Source: a virus. Taken from it: a stretch of DNA of 23,515 nt. How positions within the stretch are numbered: position 1 is the first letter of the stretch; every line of letters begins with the position of its first letter. The stretch spans positions 1 to 23,515 of IMG/VR virus record IMGVR_UViG_3300032322_001738. One strand, written 5' to 3'. Shown piece after piece: positions 9,045 to 23,515 of this stretch. Position numbers and translations under genes: made by a program. The notes below the pieces were generated by a model. That model did not search any database and was not told where the DNA came from. It worked only from the letters and a program-made list of their open reading frames with translations.

Positions 9045-9325
9045 TTTTGCTCTGCTGTTTTCTTAGCTTCTTCTAATGCTTGCTTAATAGCATTGATGTT
9101 TCTCTGACAGTTTGTATTGTTCCTGTGAAGAGTAACTAGAAGCTCCGCTACTTGAGCGTCCGTTAAGTTTTCTGGATTAGGAAATCTACGGACGTTCGGA
9201 CAATTAAACAAAGCACTGTCTGGTATAATAACAACTTGTTCTGTTCTAACAAGAGCAGCAGGAGGATTAGTGCTTAGGCAACCACCAAGTAGCAATGCAG
9301 GTGCAATCAATAATATCTTTTTCAT
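9032..9325 (-). CDS. Outer-membrane lipoprotein spanin (o-spanin, Rz1-like), 97 aa
   Basis: The N-terminus MKKILLIAPALLLGGC is a lipoprotein signal peptide with a lipobox (LGGC) and predicted lipidated Cys16. After a Pro-rich linker (STNPPAALVRT), the C-terminal half is helical and Gln/Asn/Lys-rich (INAIKQALEEAKKTAEQ). Together with the upstream gene this is the two-component spanin that fuses inner and outer membranes at the end of lysis. It overlaps that gene by 4 nt (ATGA). At 97 residues it is longer than lambda Rz1, and it is not nested inside the i-spanin gene. Confidence 0.8.
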   Translation of the reverse strand: MKKILLIAPALLLGGCLSTNPPAALVRTEQVVIIPDSALFNCPNVRRFPNPENLTDAQVAELLVTLHRNNTNCQRNINAIKQALEEAKKTAEQNNQR

Positions 9326-9669: not shown

Positions 9670-9693
9670 ATGTCTAACCTCCGTGAACAGGAA

Positions 9694-9701
9694 TATTTAT
9701 A
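9694..9701 (-). promoter_or_regulatory. T4-type late promoter for the spanin pair
   Basis: The minus strand reads TATAAATA, the exact T4 late promoter -10 box recognised by the gp55/gp33/gp45 system. It sits 25 bp before the i-spanin start, with transcription expected from about 9687. The site also lies directly before the ATG of the opposing SGNH gene. Confidence 0.75.
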
Positions 9702-10082
9702 ATGGAATGTGTTGCACTTGGTGATTCTATTGCAGTTGGTATATCACAATTTTCTAATTGTAAGAAAGTTGCTGTAGTTGGTTATTCCTCTAAGAAAATA
9801 TTGGTTTTATCTAAAAATATTAATTCTGAAATTGTAGTTATTTCTGTAGGATCAAATGATCCACACAATCCCAAATTAAGATCAAATCTTATCGCTATAC
9901 GTAACAATGTTACTGCTAAAAAAGTTATATGGATTGTTCCATATGATATTATGGCTGGTAAAGTTGTTCGTGAAGTTGCTATAATGCACGGGGATAAAAT
10001 TGTATCATTGACAAATTATAAAACAAATGATAATCTACACCCTAGAAATTACAGTGAACTAACTAAAGGAATTTTTAAATGA
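9702..10082 (+). CDS. Compact SGNH/GDSL hydrolase-like protein, 126 aa
   Basis: All four SGNH blocks can be seen. They are G7-D8-S9 (nucleophile Ser9), Gly27 in VVGYSS, G50-S51-N52-D53, and D110-N-L-H113-P (the catalytic Asp/His DxxHP). SGNH enzymes are esterases or acetyl-hydrolases acting on lipids, sugars or peptidoglycan O-acetyl groups. At 126 residues this one is much shorter than the usual 180-230, so it is a minimal core without signal peptide. The gene is clearly more AT-rich than its neighbours, a sign of separate origin. GGAATATTTATA precedes the ATG. Removal of O-acetyl groups to help the nearby endolysin is a plausible but unproven role. Confidence 0.78.
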   Translation: MECVALGDSIAVGISQFSNCKKVAVVGYSSKKILVLSKNINSEIVVISVGSNDPHNPKLRSNLIAIRNNVTAKKVIWIVPYDIMAGKVVREVAIMHGDKIVSLTNYKTNDNLHPRNYSELTKGIFK

Positions 10083-10735
10083 AAGTCTACATCGGTCCTT
10101 ACGCAAAGCACTGGAACGCTCATCGCTTTCGTCGTTGGTATCTTTCCAAAAAGTATAAGTGTGACTATTGGGACGTTGATGAATTGAAGTACGATCGCCT
10201 TGATCGCATCATTGACGCTGTAAGCGAAAAGCTGCAGGATGTTTTCAACGCGACTATCAATCGTTTTGAGCAGTGGCGTGCATGTAAAATTAAGATTCGT
10301 ATTGATCGATATGACACTTGGGGTATGGATCATACGCTCGCACTGATTATCCTTCCGATGCTCAAGCAGCTGCGGGATACAAAGAGTGGTTCGCCATTCA
10401 TTGATTATGCTGATGTTCCGGAGCAACTTCGTCCAACAGAAGAAGCTGGACCTGACAATGGATATACAGACAACACCATTCACAAACGTTGGAACTGGGT
10501 TCTCGACGAAATGATTTGGACGTTTGAGCAGTTGGTTGATGAAGAGTCAGACTCTCAGTTTTATTCTGGTGAATGTGACATTCTTTGGGAAAAGAAAGAG
10601 AGCGGTCGCTCTGAAATGAAGTGTGGTCCGAACGATACCTTTAAGGTTGATCGTGAAGGTATGGATGCTTGGAACAAGCGCATTGATAATGGTCTTCGTT
10701 TGTTCGGCAAGTATTTCAGAAATCTTTGGGACTAA
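10079..10735 (+). CDS. Conserved T4-like phage protein of unknown function, 218 aa
   Basis: I recognise this as a widespread protein of large tailed phages by three signatures. These are MKVYIGPY at the N-terminus, a central IRIDRYDTWGMDHTLALII segment ending in LPMLKQLRDTKSGSPF, and a C-terminal FKVDREGMDAW followed by GLRLFGKYFRNLWD. No biochemical function is established. It is rich in Trp, Tyr and Asp and cytoplasmic by composition. It overlaps the SGNH gene by 4 nt (ATGA), so the two are coupled. The high conservation suggests a general role in infection rather than a host-specific one. Confidence 0.85.
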   Translation: MKVYIGPYAKHWNAHRFRRWYLSKKYKCDYWDVDELKYDRLDRIIDAVSEKLQDVFNATINRFEQWRACKIKIRIDRYDTWGMDHTLALIILPMLKQLRDTKSGSPFIDYADVPEQLRPTEEAGPDNGYTDNTIHKRWNWVLDEMIWTFEQLVDEESDSQFYSGECDILWEKKESGRSEMKCGPNDTFKVDREGMDAWNKRIDNGLRLFGKYFRNLWD

Positions 10736-10743
10736 ATATTATT

Positions 10744-10953
10744 ATGAATTACAAAGTAGTACCCGAAAATGTTATTGTTGAAGCTGATAAAGCATCTCGC
10801 GAGTTAGGAGATGCTAATAACAGTTTTGGCAGACTACTTAAAGTAGCAGAAGAATACAAAGAAGCTGGTGTTAATCCAATATTCCTTTTAGACCCATGTC
10901 ATATGGATTTATTGGTTGTTTGCGAAGAAACATTTAAGAAAAAATTACACTGA
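10744..10953 (+). CDS. Small hypothetical protein, 69 aa
   Basis: This 69-residue protein (MNYKVVPENVIVEADKASRE, then LLKVAEEYKEAGVNPIFLLD) looks alpha/beta; no family is recognised. No strong Shine-Dalgarno sequence precedes the ATG at 10744. An in-frame TTG at 10726 overlapping the previous gene is an alternative start. It probably relies on coupling to the upstream gene. Confidence 0.62.
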   Translation: MNYKVVPENVIVEADKASRELGDANNSFGRLLKVAEEYKEAGVNPIFLLDPCHMDLLVVCEETFKKKLH

Positions 10954-10958
10954 AACTA

Positions 10959-10988
10959 TTTACTTTTAGATAAACACGCCTATATAAT
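10959..10988 (+). promoter_or_regulatory. Probable promoter of the Hsp20 gene
   Basis: TTTACT (10959-10964) and a perfect TATAAT (10983-10988) are 18 bp apart, within TATATAATATG, 57 bp upstream of the Hsp20 start. The spacing is one more than optimal, so confidence is moderate. Confidence 0.5.
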
Positions 10989-11045
10989 ATGTTGTGCTGC
11001 CTAATGGAGCACGTAAATTAACCTCGCTAATTTTAGGAGAAAAAT

Positions 11046-11489
11046 ATGAACGATATATTCAACACAACTACATTCGATAAGTTTTTCGTTGGTGCTGATA
11101 AGATGATTAATCATCTGGCTAGAGCCCACGAATCCTATGCGAAAGCAATTCCTGGATATCCCCCATACAACATTGTTAAAACTGACGAAAACAAGTACTG
11201 CATTGAAATGGCAGTTGTTGGTTTCGGTAAGAATAATATCGACATTGAAGTAGCCAATGGCACTTTGACCATCAAGGGTGGATTGACAGTTGATGATATG
11301 GTAAATGAAACAGTAAATCCAGTTTCTTATATCTACAAGGGTATCGCAGACCGTGCGTTCACGCGTAAGTTTGTTCTCGCTGATACCGTTGAAGTAAAAA
11401 ATGCAGAATTGATCAATGGTATGTTGAAACTTTGGTTGGAAAATATCATTCCTGATGATAAGAAGCCAAAGAAGGTAGATATCAAGTAA
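11046..11489 (+). CDS. Hsp20 small heat-shock protein, 147 aa
   Basis: An alpha-crystallin domain spans about residues 39-136: PPYNIVKTDENKYCIEMAVV, then NNIDIEVANGTLTIKG, and the late AELINGMLKL signature. A short C-terminal tail carries the V-D-I anchor. Small heat-shock proteins hold unfolding proteins for refolding. Homologues are common in T4-like marine phages, where they probably assist scaffold or capsid assembly. The N-terminal arm (1-38) is short, as in the phage forms. TTTAGGAGAAAAAT provides a strong ribosome-binding site. It has its own promoter and a downstream terminator, so it is a single-gene unit. Confidence 0.9.
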   Translation: MNDIFNTTTFDKFFVGADKMINHLARAHESYAKAIPGYPPYNIVKTDENKYCIEMAVVGFGKNNIDIEVANGTLTIKGGLTVDDMVNETVNPVSYIYKGIADRAFTRKFVLADTVEVKNAELINGMLKLWLENIIPDDKKPKKVDIK

Positions 11490-11519
11490 TCAAAGTGAGA
11501 TATTTGTTATGATCATCAC

Positions 11520-11552
11520 AGCTGGGGGATAAACTTCCCCAGCTATTATTTT
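11520..11552 (+). terminator. Intrinsic terminator after Hsp20
   Basis: AGCTGGGG (11520-11527) pairs with CCCCAGCT (11537-11544) around a 9-nt loop, followed by ATTATTTT. The 8-bp GC-rich stem and T-rich tail make a good rho-independent terminator. Confidence 0.82.
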
Positions 11553-11569
11553 GCACAAAGGAACAAAAA

Positions 11570-11737
11570 ATGATTAACTTTTTTAAACAAGCAATAGAAA
11601 TATACAACGATACTTTTAGGTTTTATAAAACTGTATACGAGTTGAGTAACTTATCTGAAGACGAATTGCGTCATCTTGGTATTAAAAGAAACGAAATTCC
11701 GTTTATTGCTATGAAAGCTTCTTTAACAGATAAATAA
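11570..11737 (+). CDS. DUF1127-like small protein, 55 aa
   Basis: Residues 17-45 (FRFYKTVYELSNLSEDELRH, then LGIKRNEI) match the pattern of the DUF1127 (YjiS-like) domain: a basic/aromatic run, then ELSxLSDxELxDIGLxRxDI. In alphaproteobacteria such proteins have been linked to RNA turnover and phosphate or polyamine responses. Here the Arg-rich stretch typical of host proteins is replaced by FRFYKTVY. AAAGGAACAAAAA precedes the ATG. It sits between the Hsp20 terminator and the endolysin. A phage copy could interfere with or supplement host RNA control; this is inference. Confidence 0.72.
   Translation: MINFFKQAIEIYNDTFRFYKTVYELSNLSEDELRHLGIKRNEIPFIAMKASLTDK
11729..11736 (+). promoter_or_regulatory. 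Possible late promoter of the lysis genes
   Basis: GATAAATA differs by one base from the T4 late box TATAAATA and lies 54 bp before the endolysin start, overlapping the DUF1127 stop codon. A TATATTATG element nearer the gene is an alternative. Evidence is weak. Confidence 0.3.
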
Positions 11738-11789
11738 CACGTAATGAACCTTCTATATTATGTTGCACTATAGTATAGGAGAATGAAAT

Positions 11790-12413
11790 ATGTCGCTTGT
11801 AACATTAGATCAGTTATGCCAATTCTTTGAAGATACAGATGAAGAATGGCTTGCTGAAGTATTAGAACCATTAAACGAAGTTCTAACTTTTTACGAAATC
11901 AATACACCTCAGCGTATTTCTATGTTCTTGGCTCAAGTTGGTCACGAATCAGCTGGTATGTCAGTAATGGAAGAAAACCTTAATTACTCTGCTCAAGGAT
12001 TAAATAAGATTTTTCCAAAATACTTCATCCGTGCTGGTCGCGAGGCTAATGCTTATGCTAGAAAACCAGAAAAGATTGCGAATGTAGTATATGCAAGTCG
12101 CATGGGTAACGGTCCACCAGAATCAGGTGATGGTTATCGTTATCGCGGAAGAGGATTTATTCAGCTAACAGGTAAGAGCAATTATGCAGCTTTCGCATCA
12201 GACATGGAAATGTCTCTTGAGGAAGTTGTGCCTTGGCTTGAAACTGCTGAAGGTGCATGTTGGTCTGCTGCTTGGTTCTGGGATTCCCGTGAACTAAACA
12301 AGTGGGCTGACAAAGGAGACATTTTAACTGTAACTAAGAAGATCAACGGTGGAACAATCGGTCTGGAAGATCGTAAGCATCATTATGAAGAAGCTCTTCA
12401 CATTTTTTCATAA
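11790..12413 (+). CDS. GH19 chitinase-like endolysin, 207 aa
   Basis: This is a glycoside hydrolase family 19 domain over nearly the whole length. The likely catalytic acid Glu53 is in FLAQVGHESAGM, a second acidic site E61/E62 precedes NLNY, and the family signature is YRYRGRGFIQLTGKSNY (116-132). Phage GH19 enzymes cut the peptidoglycan glycan strand. There is no signal peptide, so export needs the holin encoded 9 bp downstream. ATAGGAGAATGAAAT precedes the ATG. With the holin and the opposing spanin genes it completes a Gram-negative lysis set. Confidence 0.9.
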   Translation: MSLVTLDQLCQFFEDTDEEWLAEVLEPLNEVLTFYEINTPQRISMFLAQVGHESAGMSVMEENLNYSAQGLNKIFPKYFIRAGREANAYARKPEKIANVVYASRMGNGPPESGDGYRYRGRGFIQLTGKSNYAAFASDMEMSLEEVVPWLETAEGACWSAAWFWDSRELNKWADKGDILTVTKKINGGTIGLEDRKHHYEEALHIFS

Positions 12414-12422
12414 GGAACTACG

Positions 12423-12902
12423 ATGGCAAAATTCGGTAATCCAGATCCAACTCAGGAACCAGCAAAACCAACTATACCAATGGATGAACGTGAGCCAGCT
12501 TCGAAAGGAGCTGCAGCTCAAATAGATAATAACACACCTGGTCCTTCAAGACCTCCTATTTCCGCCGCCCCAGCGCCACAACTATCAGAAGCAGCTCAAC
12601 TTGCTGCTTTAGATTTCGAGAAGCAAAAGTGGGAAGCTCAACTCGCAAAAGAGTCTGAGCATTGGATGAAGGCAATGTGGCGTCCAGCCATGGGTTGGTT
12701 GTATATGGGTATGTGCGCCTGTGACTTTATCATTTTCCCAATCATAGCAATGTTTTTACCTCAAATTATCCCTGGTCTAACTTATATACCATGGAAGTCA
12801 ATCACACTCGATAACGGTGGTTTGATTCACATGGCATTCGGTGCTATCCTTGGTGTTGCTGCTTGGACTCGTGGTCAGGAAAAGATAGCTGGTAAAAACT
12901 AA
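12423..12902 (+). CDS. Holin, gene-transfer-agent/3-TM type, 159 aa
   Basis: A long Pro/Ala-rich N-terminal region (1-60) and an amphipathic helix (EKQKWEAQLAKESEHWMKAM) lead to WRPAMGWLYMGMCACDFIIF (86-105). This is the WRP-start of the '3TM holin' family known from gene transfer agents and related phages. A further hydrophobic segment (132-149) ends in AWTRGQEKI, also typical. Holins make the inner-membrane lesion that lets the endolysin reach the cell wall. Its place directly after the endolysin supports the call. Only two to three membrane passes can be seen. Confidence 0.78.
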   Translation: MAKFGNPDPTQEPAKPTIPMDEREPASKGAAAQIDNNTPGPSRPPISAAPAPQLSEAAQLAALDFEKQKWEAQLAKESEHWMKAMWRPAMGWLYMGMCACDFIIFPIIAMFLPQIIPGLTYIPWKSITLDNGGLIHMAFGAILGVAAWTRGQEKIAGKN

Positions 12903-12905
12903 AGA

Positions 12906-12934
12906 TTGATTTTATGTAACGAATAATATATAAT
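12906..12934 (+). promoter_or_regulatory. Strong sigma70 promoter of DNA polymerase gene
   Basis: TTGATT (12906-12911), 17-bp spacer, perfect TATAAT (12929-12934), 24 bp before the gp43 start. There is no T4 late box here, in line with early expression of replication genes by unmodified host polymerase. Confidence 0.85.
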
Positions 12935-12957
12935 GTAATGTATTATGTGGAGGTGTA

Positions 12958-15447
12958 ATGGCTGCAAAATTTTATACTAATGTTCATATGCGAGGCGATA
13001 AGATCTATGTTCGCGGATTTGATATGGGTCTGCGTTTCAAAGATGTTATCGCCTATCAACCATATCTTTTCATTAATAAACCAAATGGTAAGTATCGCAC
13101 TCTTGAAGGTAAGAGTGTGGATAAACTCATGTTTGATTCTATCCGCGATGCTAGAGACTTCATAGAAAAGTATGAGGAAGTTTCTAACTTTGACATTTAT
13201 GGTTTGACCACATTCCCATATCTTTACATCTTTGACAACTTCAAGGGCGATATTGATTACGATCCTAAGTTGGTAAAGATCGGCACGATTGATATTGAGT
13301 GTGCTGCCGACGAAGGTTTCCCTGACATTCAAAAAGCAGATAAGGAAGTTACCGCTATCACTATCAGATATCGCGGTAAATCATTCGTATTTGGATGCGG
13401 CGAGTTCAGAACTAATGATCCTTCTATCAATTACATCAAGTGTAAGAACGAACATGAATTGATGCTACAGTTTCTCAACTGCTGGCAAGCTCTTGACTTG
13501 GATATTGTTACTGGTTGGAACATTGAGTTCTTTGACATTCCTTACCTTGTGAATCGCATTAAGTTTCTCTTTGACGAAAAACAAGCAAAGCGTTTGTCGC
13601 CTTGGCATATTCTTGATGAAAAGATGGTAGAATTTAAAGGTAAACAAAATCAAAGCTATTCTCCCGCTGGCGTTACTGTGCTTGATTACTACCAACTGTA
13701 CCGTAAGTTTACTTTCGGTAATCAGGAATCGTATAAGCTAGATTATATTGCACAAATAGAGTTGGGCGAGAAGAAGATTGATTACTCTGAGTATGGCAAT
13801 CTGCTTGAACTTTACAAGAAAAACTTTCAGAAGTTTATCGAGTACAATATTTATGACTGTGTGCTTGTCGAAAAGCTAGATGATAAGTTGAAGTTCATTG
13901 AGCAGGTTATGGCTATCGCATATGATGCGAAGGTCAACTACAATGACACAATGACTACTGTGCGTCCCTGGGATATTATTATTCATAACTATCTGCTTGA
14001 ACAAAACATTGTCATTCCGCCGATGAAGAAGCAGAACACATATGATGCTCTTGTTGGTGGTTTTGTTAAGGAACCAAAGATTGGCTTGAGTAAGTGGGTT
14101 GTGTCGTTTGACTTGAACTCTCTGTATCCTCACCTGATTATGCAGTATAATATCAGCCCTGAAACTTTCTGCGGTAAATTGTCTGATATGCCCAGCATCG
14201 ATCAACTGTTGACTGGTACATCTGTTTTCGGTGCCAATTATCGTTCTACTGCTGGCGTTTGTTATGCTGCTAATGGTTGTTATTATTCCAGAGATAAGCA
14301 AGGGTTTTTACCTGCGCTGATGGAAAAGATGTACAACGATCGCACCAAGTATAAGAAGATGATGATTGAAGCGAAGCAGCGTTATGAGAAAACTAAAAGT
14401 CTTGAAGACGAAAAGTTGGTAGCTCGATATCATAACATGCAGATGGCCAAAAAAATTCAGCTGAACTCAGCTTATGGTGCGTTGGGTAACCAATACTTCC
14501 GTTGGTTTAACTTCAATCACGCGGAAGCAATTACAACATCTGGTCAGCTTTCAATTCGTTGGGTTGAGCGTAAGATAAATGCTTTCCTTAACAAAATGAT
14601 GAGGACAAATAGCGTGGATTACGTTATTGCCTCTGATACTGACTCTATCTATGTCACTATGGAAAAGATGGTAGAGCAACTCAATAATGATGATGAAAGG
14701 TTCATTGTAGATGCGATTGATGCTTTTTGTGAGAAAGTAATTCAACCGAAGCTTGATGGTTGGTATCAAGAGTTGGCGGATATGATGAATGCTTATCAGC
14801 AGAAGATGCAGATGAAGCGCGAAACAATCGCTAACAAGGGCATCTGGCGCGGCAAGAAAATGTATATCCTCAACGCATGGAACGTTGAAGGTGTGCAATA
14901 TGATAAGCCAAAGTTGAAGCTACAAGGTATTGAGGCTGTTCGTTCATCAACACCGCATGCTTGTCGCGAAAATATTAAGAAGGCACTTGAAGTTATTATG
15001 AATGAGGATCAGGCTGCGCTGCAGAAGTTTATCGCTGACTTTAAGGAACAGTTTATGAAGCTGCCCTTTGAAGATGTTGCTTTTCCTCGTGGTGTAAAAG
15101 GAATGAAGAAGTATAATGGTAAAGGTGACATTTATATCAAGGGTACGCCCATTCATGTAAAGGGTTCGCTCCTGTTTAATTCGCTGTTGCTTCAAAAGGG
15201 CATCAAGAATATTCCGCCAATTCAGGATGGTGATAAAGTTAAGTTTGCATATCTCAAGGAGCCAAATCCTATTGGTGACACAGTTATCGCAACACCTGAC
15301 GAGTTGCCTGATGAATTTGGTCTTGATAAATATGTTGATAGAGAGCTTCAATTTACAAAAGCATTTCTTGAACCTCTCAGATCAATCGCAGAAGTTATTG
15401 GTTGGGAAGTTGAACATCGTTCAACGTTGGAGGATTTCTTTTCATGA
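12958..15447 (+). CDS. 43: Family B DNA polymerase (T4 gp43-like), 829 aa
   Basis: This is a complete replicative polymerase with proofreading. Exo I is D112-I-E114, Exo II is GWNIEFFDIPYL (Asp193) and Exo III is YDC (Asp300). Polymerase motif A is DLNSLYP (Asp385), motif B is KKIQLNSAYG (498-507) and motif C is SDTDS (Asp560, Asp562). All catalytic acids are present. It is somewhat shorter than T4 gp43 (about 898 aa). The C-terminal end (LEDFFS) should carry the sliding-clamp contact. AGGTGTA precedes the ATG. It overlaps the next gene by 4 nt and lies in the T4-like block with uvsX and gene 41. No intein or frameshift is seen. Confidence 0.97.
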   Translation: MAAKFYTNVHMRGDKIYVRGFDMGLRFKDVIAYQPYLFINKPNGKYRTLEGKSVDKLMFDSIRDARDFIEKYEEVSNFDIYGLTTFPYLYIFDNFKGDIDYDPKLVKIGTIDIECAADEGFPDIQKADKEVTAITIRYRGKSFVFGCGEFRTNDPSINYIKCKNEHELMLQFLNCWQALDLDIVTGWNIEFFDIPYLVNRIKFLFDEKQAKRLSPWHILDEKMVEFKGKQNQSYSPAGVTVLDYYQLYRKFTFGNQESYKLDYIAQIELGEKKIDYSEYGNLLELYKKNFQKFIEYNIYDCVLVEKLDDKLKFIEQVMAIAYDAKVNYNDTMTTVRPWDIIIHNYLLEQNIVIPPMKKQNTYDALVGGFVKEPKIGLSKWVVSFDLNSLYPHLIMQYNISPETFCGKLSDMPSIDQLLTGTSVFGANYRSTAGVCYAANGCYYSRDKQGFLPALMEKMYNDRTKYKKMMIEAKQRYEKTKSLEDEKLVARYHNMQMAKKIQLNSAYGALGNQYFRWFNFNHAEAITTSGQLSIRWVERKINAFLNKMMRTNSVDYVIASDTDSIYVTMEKMVEQLNNDDERFIVDAIDAFCEKVIQPKLDGWYQELADMMNAYQQKMQMKRETIANKGIWRGKKMYILNAWNVEGVQYDKPKLKLQGIEAVRSSTPHACRENIKKALEVIMNEDQAALQKFIADFKEQFMKLPFEDVAFPRGVKGMKKYNGKGDIYIKGTPIHVKGSLLFNSLLLQKGIKNIPPIQDGDKVKFAYLKEPNPIGDTVIATPDELPDEFGLDKYVDRELQFTKAFLEPLRSIAEVIGWEVEHRSTLEDFFS

Positions 15448-15677
15448 ATATTGATTTAAACGAAAATGATGACTTTGGTTTTACATTTACCGATTCAGAG
15501 GAAATGTTATCAAAAACAGCACAGGCTGAGGATAAGGTTCAAGGATTGCGTAAGATGATTATGCCATTGCTTAATAATCTGATGAAAAATCCAGAAAAGG
15601 ATACTATCGTTTGGCCAGATCGAGAAAAGAGAATTAAAAAGTTTATCAAAGATATGGATGCATACATTAACAGTTGA
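15444..15677 (+). CDS. Small acidic protein between gp43 and uvsX, 77 aa
   Basis: This 77-residue acidic protein has an N-terminal FGFTFTDSEE segment and a helical rest (AEDKVQGLRKMIMPLLNNLM, then REKRIKKFIKDMD). Similar small ORFs sit at this place in marine T4-like phages, so a replication-associated role is likely but unassigned. It overlaps gp43 by 4 nt (ATGA). Its TGA stop (15675-15677) is part of the -35 box of the uvsX promoter. Confidence 0.75.
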   Translation: MNIDLNENDDFGFTFTDSEEMLSKTAQAEDKVQGLRKMIMPLLNNLMKNPEKDTIVWPDREKRIKKFIKDMDAYINS

Positions 15678-15702
15678 CAAATACACAAATACAAGATATA
15701 CT
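15674..15702 (+). promoter_or_regulatory. Consensus sigma70 promoter of uvsX, stop codon embedded
   Basis: TTGACA (15674-15679, full consensus), 17-bp spacer, TATACT (15697-15702), 30 bp before the uvsX start. The stop TGA of the preceding gene overlaps the -35 box. Confidence 0.9.
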
Positions 15703-15731
15703 AATAACATATTGATATACAGGAGAAATAC

Positions 15732-16784
15732 ATGTCACTTAAAGAAAAGTTGATTAAGAATAGCACTATCGATCTTACCGCTACACTCGAAAACAGTAAG
15801 ATCTTCACCAAGAAAGATATGATCCAAACATCAGTGCCGATGATCAATGTCGCACTATCTGGTTCAGTTGATGGTGGTATTACGCCAGGTATTACGATGC
15901 TTGCTGGTCCTTCAAAGCATTTCAAAACTGGTTTCGCACTTCTTCTCGCTTCCTCTTATTTGAAGAAGTATCCTGATGGTGTTGTGCTGTTTTACGATTC
16001 TGAGTTTGGCACTCCTCAAGCATATTTCAAAACATTTGGTATCCCTTTTGATTCAGTTGTTCACACTCCAATTACTGACGTTGAAGAGCTGAAGTTCGAC
16101 ATTATGGCACAGCTCAAAAACATTGAGCGTGGTGATCGCGTTATGATTGTGGTTGATTCTATCGGCAATCTCGCTTCTAAAAAGGAAGTTGAAGATGCAC
16201 TCGACCAAAAGAGTGTTGCTGATATGACACGAGCAAAGCAGCTCAAGTCGTTGTTCAGAATGATTACATCTCATCTATCACTAAAGGATATTCCTATGGC
16301 TGTGATCAATCACACCTATAAGGAAATCGGAATGTTTCCAAAAGATATTGTTGGCGGTGGCACTGGTAGTTATTATGGTGCTGATAATATTTGGATTCTC
16401 GGTCGTCAACAAGACAAGGATGGCACTGAAATTTCAGGCTATCACTTTGTCATCAATGTAGAGAAGTCCCGTTATGTTAAGGAAAAATCTAAGATCCCTA
16501 TTACAGTTTCTTTCGAGGGAGGAATTAATCGTTGGAGTGGTTTGCTTGATGTCGCTTTGGATGGCGGCTACATATCTAAACCAAAGGTTGGATGGTATGC
16601 GGTTGTGGATCGCACAACAGGAGAATTGCTCGCTCCAAACATGCGAGCCTCAGATATAGTTGATAACGGTAAGTTTTGGTTGAAGATGTTCCAGGAAACT
16701 GACTTCGCTAATTTTATTCAATCAAAGTATAAAATCGCCATGGGCTCTATTATGGAAGATAAGGATGATGAAGATGCAGCGTGA
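15732..16784 (+). CDS. uvsX: UvsX RecA-like recombinase, 350 aa
   Basis: This is a RecA-fold strand-exchange protein of the T4 UvsX type. The P-loop is the non-standard GPSKHFKT (59-66), as in T4 UvsX where Ser/Phe replace the usual Gly residues. Walker B is VMIVVDSIGNL, and the loop region following FPKDIVGGGTGSYYGADNIW should bind single-stranded DNA. It coats ssDNA for recombination-dependent replication and repair. At 350 aa it is slightly shorter than T4 UvsX. The ribosome-binding site is CAGGAGAAATAC. It overlaps the next small gene, then gene 41, in the T4-like order. Confidence 0.95.
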   Translation: MSLKEKLIKNSTIDLTATLENSKIFTKKDMIQTSVPMINVALSGSVDGGITPGITMLAGPSKHFKTGFALLLASSYLKKYPDGVVLFYDSEFGTPQAYFKTFGIPFDSVVHTPITDVEELKFDIMAQLKNIERGDRVMIVVDSIGNLASKKEVEDALDQKSVADMTRAKQLKSLFRMITSHLSLKDIPMAVINHTYKEIGMFPKDIVGGGTGSYYGADNIWILGRQQDKDGTEISGYHFVINVEKSRYVKEKSKIPITVSFEGGINRWSGLLDVALDGGYISKPKVGWYAVVDRTTGELLAPNMRASDIVDNGKFWLKMFQETDFANFIQSKYKIAMGSIMEDKDDEDAA

Positions 16785-16980
16785 GATTTCTGAGTATTAC
16801 AGCGACGACAAGACCAAGAAGGCAGTCGTAATTCTTAATGGTGAAGATTACAACATTGACTTTTACGTCAATGACAAGTATTATCATAGTATATTGTATG
16901 CTGGTAAGTCTTTGCGTTATGTAGAGGATGCAGCTGAAAATTATGCGCTTGGTATTTTCAAAAACGTCAGGGATTTTTAA
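16774..16980 (+). CDS. Small conserved protein between uvsX and gene 41, 68 aa
   Basis: This 68-residue protein (MQREISEYYSDDKTKKAVVI, then YNIDFYVNDKYYHSILYAGK) looks like a four-strand beta sheet with a final helix (LRYVEDAAENYALGIF). A small ORF occurs here in related phages; its function is unknown. The start is set at the ATG at 16774, since AAGG lies 9 nt upstream. Two earlier in-frame ATGs overlap the Shine-Dalgarno sequence. It overlaps the end of uvsX, and its stop overlaps the gene 41 start (TAATG). Confidence 0.75.
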   Translation: MQREISEYYSDDKTKKAVVILNGEDYNIDFYVNDKYYHSILYAGKSLRYVEDAAENYALGIFKNVRDF

Positions 16981-18386
16981 TGGCTGTTGAACAATTGATT
17001 TTCAACAATTTGGTTAATAATGAAGACTATGCTCGTAAAGTTATTCCTTTTCTGAAGGACGAATATTTTTCAGATCAAACGCAAAAAGTTGTTTTTCAAT
17101 TAATTAATGAGTATGTGAAGAACTACAATGCATTTCCTACTATCGAGGCGTTGGCGATCGATCTTACTAACAAGGAAGGTTTGAATGAGGAAACGTTCAA
17201 GCGTTGCAAAGATGTGCTCTCAGAAATCAAACCTGAAGAGAGGTCGTCAGAACTCCAGTGGCTTATTGACCAAACCGAAAAGTTTTGTCAAGAGAAGGCA
17301 GTATACAACGCCATTATGGCATCAATTCAAATTCTCGACGATAAGAGTGGGAAAACCTCCAAAGGGGCAATTCCGCAAATCTTATCAGATGCACTTGGTG
17401 TATCTTTTGACACGCATATTGGGCACGACTTCATTGAAGACGCGGATTCGCGCTATGAGTTTTATCACGCCAAGGAAGTTCGTATCCCGTTCGACCTTTC
17501 GTATCTGAATAAGATTACGCAAGGTGGATTGCCAAGGAAAACATTGAACATTGCACTTGCTGGTACTGGTGTTGGTAAGTCACTGTTCATGTGTCACTGC
17601 GCTGCTGCTAATTTGACAGCAGGGTTGAACGTTCTTTACATTACTCTTGAAATGGCAGAAGAGCGCATCGCTGAACGTATTGATGCTAATTTGCTTGACA
17701 TTCCTGTTGATGAATTGAAGTTGATTCCTAAAGATTCATATGATAAGAAAATTAACAGGCTCAAGAAAAAAACTGATGGTAAGTTGGTCATCAAAGAATA
17801 TCCTACAGCTTGTGCTGGTAGTGCCAACTTCCGTCACCTTCTTAATGAATTGAAGATTAAGAAAAACTTTGTTCCTGATATTATCTATATCGATTATCTA
17901 AACATTTGTTCATCATCAAGGATACGCCATGGAGCCAACGTCAATTCTTATACCCTTGTCAAAGCAATCGCAGAAGAGTTGCGAGGGTTGGCGGTTGAGT
18001 TCAGCGTCCCTATCGTCAGTGCAACTCAAACAACTCGAACAGGATATTCGAGCAGCGACGTGGGTCTGGAAGATACATCGGAATCCTTTGGACTCCCAGC
18101 CACAGCTGATTTTATGTTTGCACTTATCTCAACAGAAGAGTTGGCGGAACTGGGTCAACTTATGGTTAAGCAGCTTAAGAATCGATACTATGATCCCAAC
18201 ATTGATCGTAGGTTTATTGTTGGGGTGGACCGTAGCAAAATGCGTCTCTTTGATGTAGAACAGTCAGCTCAAGAAGATTTGCTTGATGGTCCAGTAATGG
18301 ATAATACTAAGTTTGGTGAAGAGGATTTTGAACGTTCTAAACCAAAGAAAAAATTCAACAAGTCAGCTTTTGAGGGGTTCAAGTGA
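16980..18386 (+). CDS. 41: DnaB-like replicative helicase (T4 gp41-like), 468 aa
   Basis: There is an N-terminal helical domain (1-150) and a RecA-like C-terminal domain. Walker A is GTGVGKS (195-201), then LEMAEERIAERI, and Walker B is IIYIDYLN (about 297-304). The Q-motif-like SATQTTR and GVDRSKM arginine-finger region follow. The layout and length match T4 gp41 (about 475 aa), the hexameric 5'-3' fork helicase that also activates the primase. It ends in a basic tail (RSKPKKKFNKSAFEGFK). A separate primase and helicase loader are not in the window. Its start overlaps the preceding stop by one base. Confidence 0.95.
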   Translation: MAVEQLIFNNLVNNEDYARKVIPFLKDEYFSDQTQKVVFQLINEYVKNYNAFPTIEALAIDLTNKEGLNEETFKRCKDVLSEIKPEERSSELQWLIDQTEKFCQEKAVYNAIMASIQILDDKSGKTSKGAIPQILSDALGVSFDTHIGHDFIEDADSRYEFYHAKEVRIPFDLSYLNKITQGGLPRKTLNIALAGTGVGKSLFMCHCAAANLTAGLNVLYITLEMAEERIAERIDANLLDIPVDELKLIPKDSYDKKINRLKKKTDGKLVIKEYPTACAGSANFRHLLNELKIKKNFVPDIIYIDYLNICSSSRIRHGANVNSYTLVKAIAEELRGLAVEFSVPIVSATQTTRTGYSSSDVGLEDTSESFGLPATADFMFALISTEELAELGQLMVKQLKNRYYDPNIDRRFIVGVDRSKMRLFDVEQSAQEDLLDGPVMDNTKFGEEDFERSKPKKKFNKSAFEGFK

Positions 18387-18577
18387 TCTACGTTCTTATC
18401 GTTGTTTCATACTTTGCTGGTGCTGGTGGTAACGGTCAGACTGTTACTTTCCAAGAATTCAATAACTACAATGCTTGTATGTATGCATTAAAAATTATTG
18501 AAGAAAAGAAATTCGGAATGAGATATGCATGGGATACCTATAAGTTGGCTTGTGTACCTAAAGGAGAAGTTAAGTGA
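18383..18577 (+). CDS. Small probably exported or membrane protein, 64 aa
   Basis: It starts with GTG overlapping the gene 41 stop (GTGA). The first 15 residues (MIYVLIVVSYFAGAGG) are hydrophobic with small residues after them, like a signal peptide or signal anchor. Two Cys (32 and 57) could form a disulfide in the mature part. The rest (FNNYNACMYALKIIEEKKFG) is typical of small proteins in marine phages with unknown function. Confidence 0.68.
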   Translation: MIYVLIVVSYFAGAGGNGQTVTFQEFNNYNACMYALKIIEEKKFGMRYAWDTYKLACVPKGEVK

Positions 18578-18795
18578 TGAAATATAAAATGCTTAGTGAC
18601 CTTGGATCATATAAGGTTCTTGAAACGACAACTGAACAAACTGTTGGACGATTTTCAACTGAGTTGGAAGCAAGGAAGTTTCTTCGTCATTTGAATTTTG
18701 GTGGTGGATTTGATGGTTGGACGCCAAATTTTTTTCTTCGTGACTTGTCAACTTATATAAATAATACACGCAAAGTTAAACAAGAAAGCGTTTAA
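18577..18795 (+). CDS. Small hypothetical protein, 72 aa
   Basis: This basic 72-residue protein starts MKYKMLSDLGSYKVLETT and contains ELEARKFLRHLNFGGGFDGW. The pattern of a two-strand hairpin and the ELEAxxF helix is common in phage proteins of unknown role. GGAGAAGTTAAGTG lies before the ATG. A GTG one codon earlier (18574) is an equally spaced alternative. It is the last gene of the replication operon; a TATAAATA box lies inside its 3' part. Confidence 0.68.
   Translation: MKYKMLSDLGSYKVLETTTEQTVGRFSTELEARKFLRHLNFGGGFDGWTPNFFLRDLSTYINNTRKVKQESV
18756..18763 (+). promoter_or_regulatory. T4-type late box inside a gene end
   Basis: TATAAATA, within TTATATAAATA, the same 11-mer as the downstream late promoter at 18918. 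It lies in the last codons of the 72-aa gene. If active it would make an RNA of about 140 nt ending at the 18886-18912 terminator. It could be a chance match in an AT-rich stretch. Confidence 0.4.
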
Positions 18796-18885
18796 TTACG
18801 CTGTGGCACGAGACATAAAGGGTCAAAAGGAATAGTTGAGAGAAAACGGTGGGGTTCCGCTCAACCTTGTTTTGCGGTGAGTTCT
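18796..18885 (+). ncRNA. Possible structured RNA before the terminator
   Basis: No gene fits this 90-bp stretch. GTTGAG (18835-18840) pairs with CTCAAC (18860-18865) and encloses CGG/CCG (18847-18849 with 18857-18859). A small AGCGT/ACGCT hairpin (18787-18802) lies upstream, and the terminator follows. It could be a small RNA or simply the 3' UTR of the replication operon. It is not a tRNA. Confidence 0.35.
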
Positions 18886-18912
18886 AAGGCGAGTCGAAAG
18901 GCTCGCCTTTTT
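18886..18912 (+). terminator. Strong intrinsic terminator with GAAA tetraloop
   Basis: AAGGCGAGTC (18886-18895) and GGCTCGCCTT (18900-18909) form a 10-bp stem (one G-U pair) capped by a GAAA tetraloop and followed by T-residues. It marks the boundary between the early replication operon and the late operon. Confidence 0.92.
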
Positions 18913-18917
18913 CATTA

Positions 18918-18925
18918 TATAAATA
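18918..18925 (+). promoter_or_regulatory. T4-type late promoter of the virion-protein operon
   Basis: An exact TATAAATA late box directly after the terminator and 57 bp before the first late gene. The terminator-then-late-promoter order is the classic T4 layout for temporal switching. Confidence 0.82.
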
Positions 18926-18982
18926 CCTTAAACGTTTTCTGGGCTTGAGCCTAATTAGTTAATTCTCAAGAGGTAAATTAAA

Positions 18983-20662
18983 ATGCTAAAATTCATTACT
19001 TTTATATTGAAAGAAGCTGCAGGTGATATTACGGCTAGACAAGGTCATGCCAATGAATTTTTTACTAATGATCATGGAAAGGCTTACGCGAAAGCATCTC
19101 TTGAAGCAGTAAATAGAGGTGCTTCTTCAGAAGAAGCACATGCTGCTGGTCTAGCAGCTATTATGAGCAAACAGTATGACCACAATTCATATCTTGCAAA
19201 TTCAAAAACTAAAAAGTCTGTTGCAACGTTAGGTCCTGAGGCGGCTAGACAAGTTCATGATAACTCTCGTCAAACTATGGCGGCTATGGCAGAGTATCTT
19301 CATAAAAGGTATAACGGTCGCCTTTCAGACAGTATTTGGGTAGGTGCTGGACAGGCAGGAGCCGCAGCTGCAGCAGCTAATGGTATGAAAACGAATGCTG
19401 ATCTTATTTTGAAGGTAAATCACGAAAAAAGAGAAAAATCAGCCGAAGCACATCTCGAAAATGAGCCTACTAATTTTGGCGGTTCTTTAAAGTACAGTTC
19501 CTCAGAAAAAGATAGTCAGTCAAAAATTCATTCTCCTGGTATTAATACCCTTGCTAAAATTATTGAAAGTCACCATAAGCAAATGTTTGGTGAAGAATCA
19601 GGAATTACCGAAAAACTACAAACTGCTAGAGAAGAAGGTCAGGAACGCCAAAGAAGATCGGTCACAGATTTAAACAAATCAGGCGTTTCTCATCACGAAG
19701 TAATTTCAGATTTTCTTGAAAAAGCACGAGCTAACCCGAAAAAATACAGTGGAGGAGATGAGAAGTGGGAAGAAGCTTTACGAAAAACAAAGTACATTCC
19801 TATTTCTAACCCAAAAACTAACGGTATTCATGGAGCTGACTTTAACGATGATTTCCTCAGCTTAATCAGAAAAACGATTAGAAATAAACCCAAGGGCGTA
19901 GATCATAAAGCCCTTGATGAGTTCTACAAGCACGTAAGCAATAAAAACTCTGAGATGAGAAACGATATGGCTGACATTGTCCATGAGCCTATCAGAAACA
20001 TGCTTAGACACACTTCTCCTGACGCAGAAACTCAGGATAGCCTTGATAAAATTAAGGAAAGCTTGCATCGTCATTTAGCAAACGTTCATAATCCAGGCGA
20101 AAAACCGGATCAGCTCCCAACCATGATGGTTAAAACAGGAGGCGATGGTACTGTAGGTATTGCAGACGTAAATGAAGCATATCGTCAACATTTTTCCGCA
20201 GACAGAAATAACTTATCTTTCGAAAAGAAAAGCCCTAATAAAGGTACTTTCAGAGTTGGTCCGGGCACGCTTACATTAGACGTACGCCCCGGAACTATGC
20301 ATAATCCGTTAGCAAATCCAGCCAACTATACCATTCCATCAAGCCTCACCAGGAGCGCAATTGTAAAATATAAGAACGGTAAGTTCGATAAAAAAATTAC
20401 TTCAGACGAAACTAACACTAAAGAAACATCACCAGAAAGTAGAATTGCACCAGCCGCTCCTAAATCTTATGCCCCCGCTCCTGTAGCTACAGCTGCTCCA
20501 CCAGCAAATAAGGGAACGAGAGGTTTTGCAGTTAACAAAGATAGTTCAGGCGACTGGAGACAAAATCAACCGCACAGCCAAAATTTAGCTGGTTCTATGA
20601 CACACGGCACAGGTTGGCACACTGCTTCAGAACAACAAGAAATGGCTAAAGGATTGGGTTAA
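18983..20662 (+). CDS. Predicted capsid-internal (injected) protein, possible nuclease, 559 aa
   Basis: The N-terminus MLKFITFILKE-A resembles T4 capsid-targeting sequences, with an L-K-E/A site for the prohead protease. Residues 100-170 may form a PD-(D/E)xK-type core: a helix with Glu104, TNADLILK (Asp140) and GGSLKY (Ser168-Lys170), followed by HSPG. A long helical charged middle and a Pro/Ala-rich C-terminal linker (441-500, AAPKSYAPAPVATAAPP) come after. No full-length family is recognised. AGAGGTAAATTAAA precedes the ATG. It is first in the late operon. If packaged, it could act on host DNA right after injection; the nuclease call is tentative. Confidence 0.7.
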   Translation: MLKFITFILKEAAGDITARQGHANEFFTNDHGKAYAKASLEAVNRGASSEEAHAAGLAAIMSKQYDHNSYLANSKTKKSVATLGPEAARQVHDNSRQTMAAMAEYLHKRYNGRLSDSIWVGAGQAGAAAAAANGMKTNADLILKVNHEKREKSAEAHLENEPTNFGGSLKYSSSEKDSQSKIHSPGINTLAKIIESHHKQMFGEESGITEKLQTAREEGQERQRRSVTDLNKSGVSHHEVISDFLEKARANPKKYSGGDEKWEEALRKTKYIPISNPKTNGIHGADFNDDFLSLIRKTIRNKPKGVDHKALDEFYKHVSNKNSEMRNDMADIVHEPIRNMLRHTSPDAETQDSLDKIKESLHRHLANVHNPGEKPDQLPTMMVKTGGDGTVGIADVNEAYRQHFSADRNNLSFEKKSPNKGTFRVGPGTLTLDVRPGTMHNPLANPANYTIPSSLTRSAIVKYKNGKFDKKITSDETNTKETSPESRIAPAAPKSYAPAPVATAAPPANKGTRGFAVNKDSSGDWRQNQPHSQNLAGSMTHGTGWHTASEQQEMAKGLG

Positions 20663-21861
20663 TGTTAAAGTTTACAGAATATCTTATAGAGGCAGAAGAA
20701 CAAACAGAGGGTAAAAAGCTAACCCACCTTACTCACCTTGAAGATCTTCCTATTCATCATGGTAACGAAGGTGCTGGTATGGCTGCTGACTTTCTTGACA
20801 GTGTGCATAATCACTTGTTAGGTAAGAAGTCAACAACTCACTTATCCACAAAGTATGATGGTGCACCTTCAGTTGTTTTTGGCACACATCCTAAAACTGG
20901 TAAATTTTTTGTTGCTACAAAATCAGCTTTTAACAAAGAACCTAAGATTAATTATACCCCAGAAGATATTGAACGTAATCATGGCCATGCTCCTGGTTTA
21001 GTTGAAAAGTTAAAAGCTGCCCTAGAACATCTACCTAAAATTATGCCAAAGCAGGGTGGTGTGTATCAAGGCGACTTAATGCATACAACTGGTGACGTTC
21101 AAACCAAACGTAATCAAGTAAGTTTTATGCCTAACACTATTACATATTCAACTGATAAAGATAGCGATGATGGTAGAGCAGCAAGAGCTGCTAAAGTAGG
21201 TATCGTAGCCCACACTCAATACAGAGGTAAAGGCGATCTAGGCAATATGAGTGCTGGACCTATATCAGACAAAGAAAGAGCATCTTTCCGCAATCACCCT
21301 GATGTTCATAATATTGATCCTACAATAAGTTCAAATCCTGCAAATTATACTCCTGAAGATCAAACTGAATTCCATTCACATATGGACAAAGCTAGAAGAA
21401 CATATTCTAGAATGAAACCTGAGGCTCTTGATGCATTACAGGGTCATGGCACTGATCTTGAGGCGCATGTAAATCAGATGATCAGAACTGGTGGTAAACC
21501 AAGTGTTGATGGGTATGTAAAGCATTTAACTGATAGAGCTACCAAAGAAATAGAAAAGGTTAAAACTCCTGGCGCTAAAGACCGTAAGATGAGAGCGCAT
21601 AGTGCTAATATTCAAAACATTTTAAATAATCGCGATCACTTTGAAAAAGCGTTAGAGCTTCATGGTCATCTTCAAAGAGCTAAAAATGTTCTAGCTCGTG
21701 TAATGGCCAGGAATAATCCTTTTGGTCATAGTATTAATGGTGTTGAAACTGGACCTGAAGGCGCTGTAGCTGTAGATAAAACTGGTAATATGACTAAATT
21801 CGTTGATCGTGACGAATTCTCTAGACAAAACTTTCTTCGTAATCAAGGAGGATTCCAATGA
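20662..21861 (+). CDS. Predicted injected ligase-like nucleotidyltransferase, 399 aa
   Basis: After a capsid-targeting-like start (MLKFTEYLIE-A, site after Glu10), the protein carries the hallmarks of the covalent nucleotidyltransferase fold of ligases and capping enzymes. Motif I is K64-Y-D66-G67, FFVATKSAF (82-90) corresponds to a motif Ia region, motif III-like VYQGDL is at 134-139, and VGIVAHT (179-185) is a motif IV-like strand. Lys64 would carry the AMP or GMP. RNA or DNA end-joining or protein nucleotidylation are possible; the substrate is unknown. The C-terminal half is helical. Similar proteins of unknown function occur in T4-like cyanophages. Its start overlaps the preceding stop (TAATG). 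Confidence 0.72.
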   Translation: MLKFTEYLIEAEEQTEGKKLTHLTHLEDLPIHHGNEGAGMAADFLDSVHNHLLGKKSTTHLSTKYDGAPSVVFGTHPKTGKFFVATKSAFNKEPKINYTPEDIERNHGHAPGLVEKLKAALEHLPKIMPKQGGVYQGDLMHTTGDVQTKRNQVSFMPNTITYSTDKDSDDGRAARAAKVGIVAHTQYRGKGDLGNMSAGPISDKERASFRNHPDVHNIDPTISSNPANYTPEDQTEFHSHMDKARRTYSRMKPEALDALQGHGTDLEAHVNQMIRTGGKPSVDGYVKHLTDRATKEIEKVKTPGAKDRKMRAHSANIQNILNNRDHFEKALELHGHLQRAKNVLARVMARNNPFGHSINGVETGPEGAVAVDKTGNMTKFVDRDEFSRQNFLRNQGGFQ

Positions 21862-22481
21862 TCAGCTTTAAGAGTTATATAGCAGAAGCTGCAGCCAAGG
21901 GCGCTGGTAAAGTAGTATTTGCTTTCGGTAGAATGAACCCACCAACTATCGGTCACGGAGCTTTGGTCGACACTGTAAAAGGTTTAGCTAATCAACATAG
22001 TGCCAATCATGAGATAGTTCTTTCTCATTCTCAAGATCCTAAGAAAAATCCACTCACACCTGAACAAAAACTATCACATGCTAGAATGTTTTTCCCAGGT
22101 ACAAACATTTCTTTAGCGTCAAAAGACCAACCTACACTATTACATCACCTTTCTAGACTACATCAAGCTGGTCATGACCACGCTATAGTAGTTGCTGGTG
22201 GTGATAGAGTACCAGAATATCAAAAGTTGTTAAACCATTACAACGGTAAGCCAGATAAGAGTGGCAAAGTTTTATTCAACTTTAAGAAAATTGATGTTGT
22301 TTCTGCTGGTGAAAGAGATCCAGACGCTGAAGGCGTTGAAGGAATGTCTGCATCAAAAATGAGAGAACATGCAGCAGCAAATGATTTTAAATCTTTTAAA
22401 CAGGGAGTGCCAAAAGGTGTTCCTGAAGAACATGCTATGCAAATGTTCAATAATGTAAGAGCAGGAATGGGAGCAAAGTAA
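21858..22481 (+). CDS. Predicted injected NMNAT/cytidylyltransferase-like enzyme, 207 aa
   Basis: A capsid-targeting-like start (MISFKSYIAE-A) is followed by a Rossmann-type nucleotidyltransferase. VVFAFGRMNPPTIGH (19-33) is the (T/H)xGH phosphate-binding motif region, and SASKMR (164-169) is the C-terminal (I/S)SxxxR motif. The family makes NAD (NMN adenylyltransferase), CDP-activated compounds or coenzyme A precursors. Phage members are usually annotated as 'cytidylyltransferase'. Which nucleotide it uses cannot be read from the sequence. It overlaps the previous gene by 4 nt (ATGA) and the next by one base, so the four late genes are coupled. Confidence 0.8.
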   Translation: MISFKSYIAEAAAKGAGKVVFAFGRMNPPTIGHGALVDTVKGLANQHSANHEIVLSHSQDPKKNPLTPEQKLSHARMFFPGTNISLASKDQPTLLHHLSRLHQAGHDHAIVVAGGDRVPEYQKLLNHYNGKPDKSGKVLFNFKKIDVVSAGERDPDAEGVEGMSASKMREHAAANDFKSFKQGVPKGVPEEHAMQMFNNVRAGMGAK

Positions 22482-23515
22482 TGGCTCAGTTTAGAAAAGA
22501 CACACAGCAATATCTTTCTGATGGTAAAACCATCTTTGATGTGGTCATGTTGGCTGATCAAACCGGAAGAGTTGTAAACTCCAATAATCCCATTGTAGCT
22601 AATCCTTCCGGAGTAGCTGTTGATGCGTTTGGTAGATTAAGAATATCAACACCCTTTACTCTGTTTGATTCCTCGCACCGCTTCAAGGACAATGGTCTGT
22701 GGGTTACATCAAATACAGCGGGTGCGACTTACGCCCATAATGCCAACGCTGGCTTAATCGAACTAAATCTTCCTACAACAGCAAATGCCGAAATTGTACG
22801 CGAGACAACCAAGGTTTTCTCTTACCAGCCAGGTAAGTCTCTACAGTCACTAAACACATTCGTCATGAATACACCTAAGGCAAACCTGCGCCAGCGCGTT
22901 GGCTACTTTGGTTCTCAAAACGGGATCTATCTTGAACTTGACGGTACGACACTTAACTTTGTCGAACGTTCGTATGTTACTGGCGCAGTAATCGAAACGA
23001 AAGTATCGCAAGCAAACTGGAACGTAGATACGCTTCTTGGAAATGTCAGTTCAAGTCCATCAGGAATTACTCTGGATATCTCAAAAGCGCAGATTGTATT
23101 CTTTGACATCGAGTGGCTAGGACTAGGTACTGTAAGGTGTGGATTTGTCATTGACGGTAAGTTAATCCACTGCCACTCATTCCATCACGCAAATCTAATC
23201 GAATCAACCTATATGACTACTGGGTCTCTTCCTCTTCGTTATGAAATTAAGAACACAGCTGCAACAGCAAGTGTTAGTACTCTTAAGCAAGTCTGCTCAA
23301 CTGTCATAAGCGAGGGTGGATATGAGCTTCGAGGTTCGCAACAAGCAATAGGTACTCCAATAACTGCGGCGCGTACTTTGACTACAGCAGGGACGTTTTA
23401 TCCAATTGTATCATTGAGATTAAAAGCCACAGCACTAGATGCTGTAGTCATTCTCACTGCTATATCTTGCATAGCCGACACATCAAGTAACTTCAACTGG
23501 CAGGTAAGAGCAAAC
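22481..23515 (+). CDS. Virion structural protein, partial (first 345 codons)
   Basis: The frame is open from the ATG at 22481 to the window end without a stop, giving 345 residues. The sequence (AVDAFGRLRISTPFTLFDS, then RQRVGYFGSQNGIYLELDG) is typical of large beta-rich virion proteins of T4-like marine phages, probably a tail-fibre or baseplate-associated protein. Many Thr/Ser/Asn and short beta strands (IVFFDIEWLGLGTVRCGFVI) support this. The start overlaps the preceding stop (TAATG). Exact location in the particle is unknown. The C-terminal part is outside the window. Confidence 0.8.
   Translation, partial: MAQFRKDTQQYLSDGKTIFDVVMLADQTGRVVNSNNPIVANPSGVAVDAFGRLRISTPFTLFDSSHRFKDNGLWVTSNTAGATYAHNANAGLIELNLPTTANAEIVRETTKVFSYQPGKSLQSLNTFVMNTPKANLRQRVGYFGSQNGIYLELDGTTLNFVERSYVTGAVIETKVSQANWNVDTLLGNVSSSPSGITLDISKAQIVFFDIEWLGLGTVRCGFVIDGKLIHCHSFHHANLIESTYMTTGSLPLRYEIKNTAATASVSTLKQVCSTVISEGGYELRGSQQAIGTPITAARTLTTAGTFYPIVSLRLKATALDAVVILTAISCIADTSSNFNWQVRAN

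Follow-up and report, generated by a model that had tools for sequence, protein, structure and literature searches.

Three consecutive genes of a 23,515-base IMG/VR fragment (record IMGVR_UViG_3300032322_001738, analysed whole and called here the window) probably encode cargo of a phage head, that is, enzymes captured by a short N-terminal tag resembling the capsid-targeting sequence (CTS) of phage T4, trimmed after a conserved Glu and injected into the next host. By analogy with T4 we infer the packaging of these three proteins, their cleavage, injection and activity. A first-pass annotation, made from the sequence alone, had placed three consecutive open reading frames (ORFs) with tag-like N-termini at 18983-22481, and both the positions and the N-termini were confirmed. 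The genes overlap start to stop, and their tags are as follows:

18983-20662, plus strand: gene 1, PD-(D/E)XK-type nuclease-like protein of 559 aa, from invariant residues and predicted fold
18983-19015, plus strand: capsid-targeting-like tag of gene 1, MLKFITFILKE, which exceeds the canonical length by one residue
20662-21861, plus strand: gene 2, DUF6267 (PF19782, phrog_455), ligase-fold nucleotidyltransferase-like protein of 399 aa, E 6.8e-93
20662-20691, plus strand: capsid-targeting-like tag of gene 2, MLKFTEYLIE, exact match; E10 in 39/39 and F4 in 36/39 sequences
21858-22481, plus strand: gene 3, NMNAT-like/cytidyltransferase-like nucleotidyltransferase of 207 aa, phrog_3041 E 3.5e-62
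21858-21887, plus strand: capsid-targeting-like tag of gene 3, MISFKSYIAE, exact match; E10 in 21/22 and F4 in 21/22 sequences

The strict tag pattern was M-x-x-[FY]-x-x-[FYLI]-[ILVM]-x-E. Genes 2 and 3 fit it exactly and gene 1, where an extra residue precedes the Glu, only when a one-residue insertion is allowed, so that the shared M-x-x-F-type pattern of the earlier annotation holds to the letter for two of the three genes. An Ala follows the tag Glu in every case (MLKFITFILKE/A, MLKFTEYLIE/A and MISFKSYIAE/A). No match was found in the 18 other window genes examined, and the strict scan of the T4 genome, used as a positive control, returned only the two MKTYQEFIAE genes, by sequence IPII and IPIII. 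Mutants of T4 IPIII have assigned positions 4 and 7 to targeting and positions 8 and 10 to processing (PMC9026906). These same four positions hold most of the information in all three families, while positions 2, 3, 5, 6 and 9 vary, as seen in alignments of 39 DUF6267, 23 gene-3 and 28 gene-1-family sequences in which each ORF was read from its earliest start codon (or, for some few relatives of gene 1, from the ORF start printed by the search) and not from a start chosen for the tag. The cleavage-site Glu was kept in 39/39 sequences for gene 2, 21/22 for gene 3 and 26/27 for the gene 1 family. The predicted models of genes 1 and 2 show the motif as a short helix and place the tag beyond the part that is folded with confidence. 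The mature parts of the three proteins belong to different predicted folds or families.

The frequency of the tag was estimated in loci fetched by gene 2 patterns that did not include it, scoring it within 12 codons of the first ATG. It was found in 37/55 DUF6267 genes, in 26/47 gene-3 homologues and in 38/212 other genes lying within two genes, versus 3/253 of the more distant genes and 2/2,930 internal ATGs. The full locus set, for part of which the tag peptide had served as a search pattern, gave the same picture of enrichment, and among the internal Met residues of related loci 3/5343 fitted the strict form and 11/5343 a relaxed one. The tagged genes fall into about 20 BLAST clusters with no detectable mutual similarity. 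The identical MISFKSYI found on several families was considered as evidence of tag swapping; the likeness is real but the codons differ, and it was not counted because MISFKSYI was one of the search patterns of the scan.

Published virion proteomics of relatives agrees with the distribution of the tag. The cytidylyltransferase T4-GC190 was detected in S-SM1 virions (Sullivan et al. 2010, PMC3037559); its gene, SSM1_190, lies directly after DUF6267 and its product starts MKKFSAFLNEA. For S-SZBM1 (PMC9146016) the authors name a single enzyme among the proteins of the virion, the cytidylyltransferase, which starts MRFRQFIIEA. The virion table of S-CREM2 includes a gene-3 orthologue (PMC10665884) that starts MKNFSSFLTEA. 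As the tag pattern had been fixed before the S-CREM2 genome was fetched, this phage provided an out-of-sample test: the strict scan of its first 150 kb returned four genes, encoding the cytidylyltransferase, a SAM hydrolase, an APH-like kinase and ORF136, all four of which are in the virion table (P 0.0019, or 0.0003 without the named structural genes), whereas most untagged non-structural genes are absent from it. A protein kinase was reported from S-CRM01 virions (PMC10665884), and the S-CRM01 homologue of the S-CREM2 kinase starts MISFDQFLSE. Conversely, the untagged gene-3 homologue of PA5oct is not flagged as detected by mass spectrometry, while most of its neighbours are. The presence of the tag on enzymes detected in virions favours cargo over contamination. 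The head packaging claimed in the first-pass annotation is thus backed by mass spectrometry of tagged gene-3 orthologues in S-SM1, S-SZBM1 and S-CREM2; the gene 1 and gene 2 orthologues of S-SZBM1 were not detected, but these are untagged. Orthologues of gene 3 are also tagged in P-SSM4, S-SM2, ACG-2014f, ACG-2014d, S-RIM14 and RN05-S; no clear tag was seen in that of S-PRM1, and none in the jumbo-phage homologues (RaK2, CBB and PA5oct).

Other virion-reported proteins of S-CREM2 (L294, OR473000) have tag-like stretches. The Cas9-like nuclease ORF12 (7704-10313, minus strand) has LRFASFMAEAA, which is preceded by 16 additional residues and lacks a usual start codon; as this stretch, at residues 17-27, begins with CTG, ORF12 was not counted as a tagged gene. 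Two small virion-detected neighbours of the kinase (10310-13331, minus strand) carry near-tags, MKDLHSFLTEQ in ORF13 and MNFSEFNES in ORF15.

The first-pass guesses about the enzymes (a nuclease, a ligase-like and an NMNAT-like protein) hold at the level of family or predicted fold. For gene 1 two further features were delimited:

19400-19492, plus strand: predicted catalytic segment of gene 1, invariant D140 and S168-L-K170 in the alignment, with invariant E25 upstream
18926-20545, plus strand: segment that resembles nothing in the DNA of the sister phage (L084/L150), spanning the tag and body of gene 1 and not its last ~38 residues

Searched by plain sequence, gene 1 had no usable hit in any of Pfam, PHROGs, NCBIfam, PADLOC, the phage collection and the viral-contig scan. 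Its relatives emerged only when profiles built from genes at the corresponding position were iterated, and the E-values of these profiles are partly circular. The relatives form a fast-diverging family in the same genomic slot. In the alignment of 28 diverse sequences (mean column identity 17%) the only invariant columns were E25, D140, S168 and K170, and the tag Glu was nearly as well conserved. The conserved D...(E/Q/N/S)-x-K core of PD-(D/E)XK nucleases of the HinP1I/MspI-like kind is found in gene 1 with a Ser, not an acidic residue, ahead of x-K, and a similar D...S-x-K was located by regular expression and by eye in this slot of the marine relatives Melnitz, HTVC008M and S-SM1. The predicted model (mean predicted local distance difference test score, pLDDT, 70.8; residues 1-13 below 50; Ala/Pro-rich C-terminal region of low confidence) matched HinP1I with Z 7.6 over 228/247 residues and MspI with Z 6.0 over 206/262, the next structural rows being unrelated proteins at Z 3.9 or lower.

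The DNA of the sister phage is 88-92% identical to the window over 15228-18925 and 20546-23193, on both sides of the dissimilar segment. Both versions of gene 1 are tagged, MLKFITFILKE in the window and MLSFFQYLIEK in the sister phage; BLAST cannot align their bodies, and iterated profiles put both in the same broad family. A tagged gene 1 with a replaced body is as expected of exchanged cargo. The last ~38 residues (20546-20662 of the window), which are kept in the sister phage, may have a role of their own. Palindrome avoidance was tried as a clue to the specificity of gene 1, and only GGCC was notably low (13 seen in 1-23515, ~30 expected from shorter words); this scarcity was set aside because it was obtained without multiple-test control and no reason ties GGCC to gene 1.

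Gene 2 is a clear member of DUF6267 with two candidate catalytic regions:

20851-20862, plus strand: K64-Y-D-G67, motif I of the covalent nucleotidyltransferase superfamily; K, D and G invariant
21757-21798, plus strand: E366-G-x-V369 and K379, candidate motifs IV and V; invariant

Residues K64, D66, G67, E366, G367, V369 and K379 are invariant in the 39 sequences of the family. The model (mean pLDDT 91.5; residues 1-17 below 50) was closest to the Naegleria RNA ligase (Z 9.2, root-mean-square deviation 3.7, 187 residues), followed by TbREL1 (Z 8.4) and T4 Rnl1 (Z 8.0), and all 50 listed chains aligned to it were RNA or DNA ligases. Searches of gene 2 against PDB sequence profiles returned nothing beyond helical noise.

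Judging from its motifs, gene 3 is a nucleotidyltransferase of the HxGH superfamily:

21930-21956, plus strand: R25-M-N-P-P-T-I-G-H33, HxGH-type nucleotide-binding motif in the T-x-G-H form
22347-22364, plus strand: S164-A-S-K-M-R169, equivalent of the ISSTxxR motif, in the matching segment aligned to 3gmi

Both superfamily motifs are thus present, TIGH for (H/T)xGH and SASKMR for the SxxKxR type. TIGR00125 scored below its cut-off and PF01467 (E 0.00076) just below, the only PDB matches were UPF0348 (MJ0951), PPAT and PAPS synthetase chains, all of them weak, and the relatives of gene 3 are annotated as NMNAT-like.

A T4-style account is the most economical explanation of these observations, with injection proposed by analogy with T4. 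The three enzymes would be transcribed late; the N-terminal tag, working like the T4 capsid-targeting sequence, would draw them into the prohead core, where the gp21-type protease of the phage would trim them after the conserved Glu; and the trimmed enzymes would stay beside the DNA in the head and accompany it into the next host. The most likely roles that we infer are that gene 1, the body of which is exchanged between close relatives, provides a restriction-enzyme-like nuclease that may attack the DNA of the host or of a rival on entry, that gene 2 acts as an RNA/DNA-ligase-like nucleotidyltransferase in nucleic-acid end repair, and that the product of gene 3 serves to supply or recycle dinucleotides of the NAD type, perhaps to the benefit of gene 2, its frequent fusion partner. 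T4 heads tolerate a nuclease encapsidated through the CTS (PMC3012670), which makes a nuclease plausible as cargo. The search for a gp21-like protease suggested in the first-pass annotation succeeded in the relatives: a gp21-family prohead protease was found in 7/7 IMG/VR relatives larger than 120 kb and in 8/8 reference phages searched.

Four other explanations were weighed. The tagged proteins could be packaged and yet act in the head, as scaffold partners or in DNA condensation or head maturation, and not in the next host. T4 IPIII also influences head assembly (PMC9026906), and a structural gene (phrog_1645) starts directly downstream of the operon; against this, the cargo proteins have enzyme-like folds in which residues of catalytic type are conserved and, unlike structural proteins, gene 1 is exchanged between close relatives, which leaves a role confined to the head improbable. 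We also regard as unlikely that the motif is a docking helix joining the enzymes of the operon to each other, or to another phage protein, in the infected cell, packaging being incidental. Its prediction as a short helix would suit such a function, and the nuclease, ligase-like and NMNAT-like genes adjoin, the gene-3 domain being fused to DUF6267 in 32/136 DUF6267 ORFs, from which it follows that the proteins probably cooperate. However, the motif is found on many unrelated proteins, including the S-CREM2 kinase and SAM hydrolase encoded far from the operon, tagged proteins turn up in virions, and docking leaves the near-invariant Glu at the exact T4 processing position unaccounted for. Contamination of the cyanophage virions by abundant late proteins, in which case the tag would not equal packaging, is quite improbable: it was named as possible by the S-CREM2 and S-SCSM1 authors, but detection was repeated in independent phages and in S-CREM2 it followed the full tag. 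Finally, chance likeness or common ancestry of the N-termini is scarcely credible, short as the pattern is, in view of its rarity at internal ATGs (2/2930, against 37/55 DUF6267 genes), the different families and predicted folds of the mature parts, and the S-CREM2 test.

Several observations weigh against the head-cargo explanation, or against the enzymatic identities attached to it. The tag of gene 1 is non-canonical, with 11 residues. In marine cyanophages, the DUF6267 genes inspected (those of S-SM1, Syn9, S-PM2, S-SZBM1 and HTVC008M) have no tag, and the untagged DUF6267 and slot-1 proteins of S-SZBM1 are missing from its virion table, in which the tagged gene-3 protein is listed. Tag-carrying families include untagged members, such as the S-H34 kinase. 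The S-CREM2 P value rests on four genes, and the authors of the S-CREM2 and S-SCSM1 studies could not exclude contamination of their caesium chloride-purified virions. No gp21 gene was seen in the 23.5 kb fragment of this phage. The assignments of gene 1 as nuclease-like at the fold level and of gene 2 as ligase-like are supported by predicted models with modest Z scores (7.6 and 9.2, respectively) together with conserved residues, and Foldseek alone gave nothing significant for either protein (E above 1 for gene 1).

In the window, genes for a DNA polymerase, UvsX and a gp41-type helicase lie upstream of the three-gene operon. Two candidate expression signals precede gene 1:

18886-18909, plus strand: intrinsic terminator-like hairpin with a T-rich tail, 10 pairs of which 6 are GC, a consensus match only
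18918-18925, plus strand: T4-type late promoter element TATAAATA, 57 nt ahead of the gene 1 start codon

The hairpin sits between the replication genes and the putative cargo operon. The element TATAAATA occurs three times in the window versus 1.4 expected by chance, which is not significant for the window alone. In related loci it is nearly always on the plus (coding) strand, and it was found upstream of 39/191 tagged genes (20%) versus 84/996 untagged ORFs (8%; p 6e-6). Among cultured phages, genes 2 and 3 have their relatives mainly in Kyanoviridae, namely in phages of Synechococcus and Prochlorococcus and in HTVC008M, Melnitz and C48C1.

Other proteins were noted in the same surroundings. 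In several phages the slot before DUF6267 is filled by a tagged family that has a HAD-like D-x-D-E-T motif (L085, 1427-2056; L176, 5297-6004; and relatives), and a PAP2-superfamily phosphatase-like protein is tagged in two loci, as MKNFTGFIREA (L133, 4076-4741) and MKKFKQYLKED (L139, 3716-4399). An untagged family with a PD..ELK-like pattern, possibly a nuclease, occupies the same slot in about 11 loci (L104, 3986-4783; L106, 3968-4783; and relatives). The S-H34 counterpart of the virion kinase (L298, 109-401) does not carry the complete tag (MRLSQFNENAES), which shows tag loss or a variant form within a family.

T4 CTS packaging and the occurrence of NMNAT-like proteins in cyanophage virion preparations are already known. 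What is new is that the tag marks DUF6267, a restriction-enzyme-like nuclease family and many other proteins, and that it agrees with virion proteomics; our literature search, which left subscription journals largely outside, found no paper linking the T4 CTS with the NMNAT-like proteins of cyanophage virions. It seems fairly likely that Kyanoviridae and their relatives employ the T4-type tag generally to deliver large enzymes that arrive with the genome, the body in the nuclease slot being exchanged between close relatives. If so, the set delivered here would comprise nuclease, ligase-like and NMNAT-like enzymes, and elsewhere kinases, SAM hydrolases and phosphatases; T4 capsid delivery would then cover not just small inhibitors but also kits of several enzymes, in phages that are ecologically abundant. 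Several groups have reported NMNAT-like proteins and kinases in cyanophage virion preparations with uncertain status as cargo, for which the tag offers both a mechanism and a predictor, and since it can be read from sequence, candidate injected proteins could be listed across hundreds of phage genomes.

Among known systems, gene 2 shares with RNA ligases (Naegleria RNA ligase, TbREL1, T4 Rnl1 and Rnl2) the predicted fold of the catalytic domain (Z 9.2 to 7.7) and motifs I, IV and V, but differs in its 10-15% identity and in a large helical insert before motif IV, and DNA ligases score only slightly lower. To DUF6267, to which the libraries assign no function, the present analysis adds the predicted ligase-like fold and the tag. 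Gene 1 shares its predicted fold and the invariant D...S-x-K with the type II restriction endonucleases HinP1I and MspI; in contrast to these, it has no sequence match in family searches, no methyltransferase was seen adjacent to it, and it bears a long C-terminal extension and the capsid tag. The anti-restriction protein DarB of phage P1 is likewise brought into the head by its N-terminus, through a signal of more than nine residues for which the Dar proteins share no consensus (PMC9024508). Gene 3 is a homologue of the virion-associated NMNAT-like cytidylyltransferases of S-SM1, S-SZBM1, S-CBWM1, S-SCSM1 and S-CREM2, and the S-SM1, S-SZBM1 and S-CREM2 copies are both tagged and detected in virions; the publications consulted on these virions mention no targeting tag and leave open the choice between cargo and contamination. 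The internal proteins IPI, IPII and IPIII of T4, which inhibit restriction enzymes (PMC12373910), are small, whereas the proteins described here are enzyme-like, range from 207 to 559 aa and belong to a different phage family, with cleavage predicted only. In both cases, the same ten-residue N-terminal tag, with aromatic residues at positions 4 and 7, a hydrophobic residue at 8 and Glu at 10, is carried by otherwise unrelated proteins encoded in a hotspot, and the relatives of the present phage encode a protease of the gp21 type.

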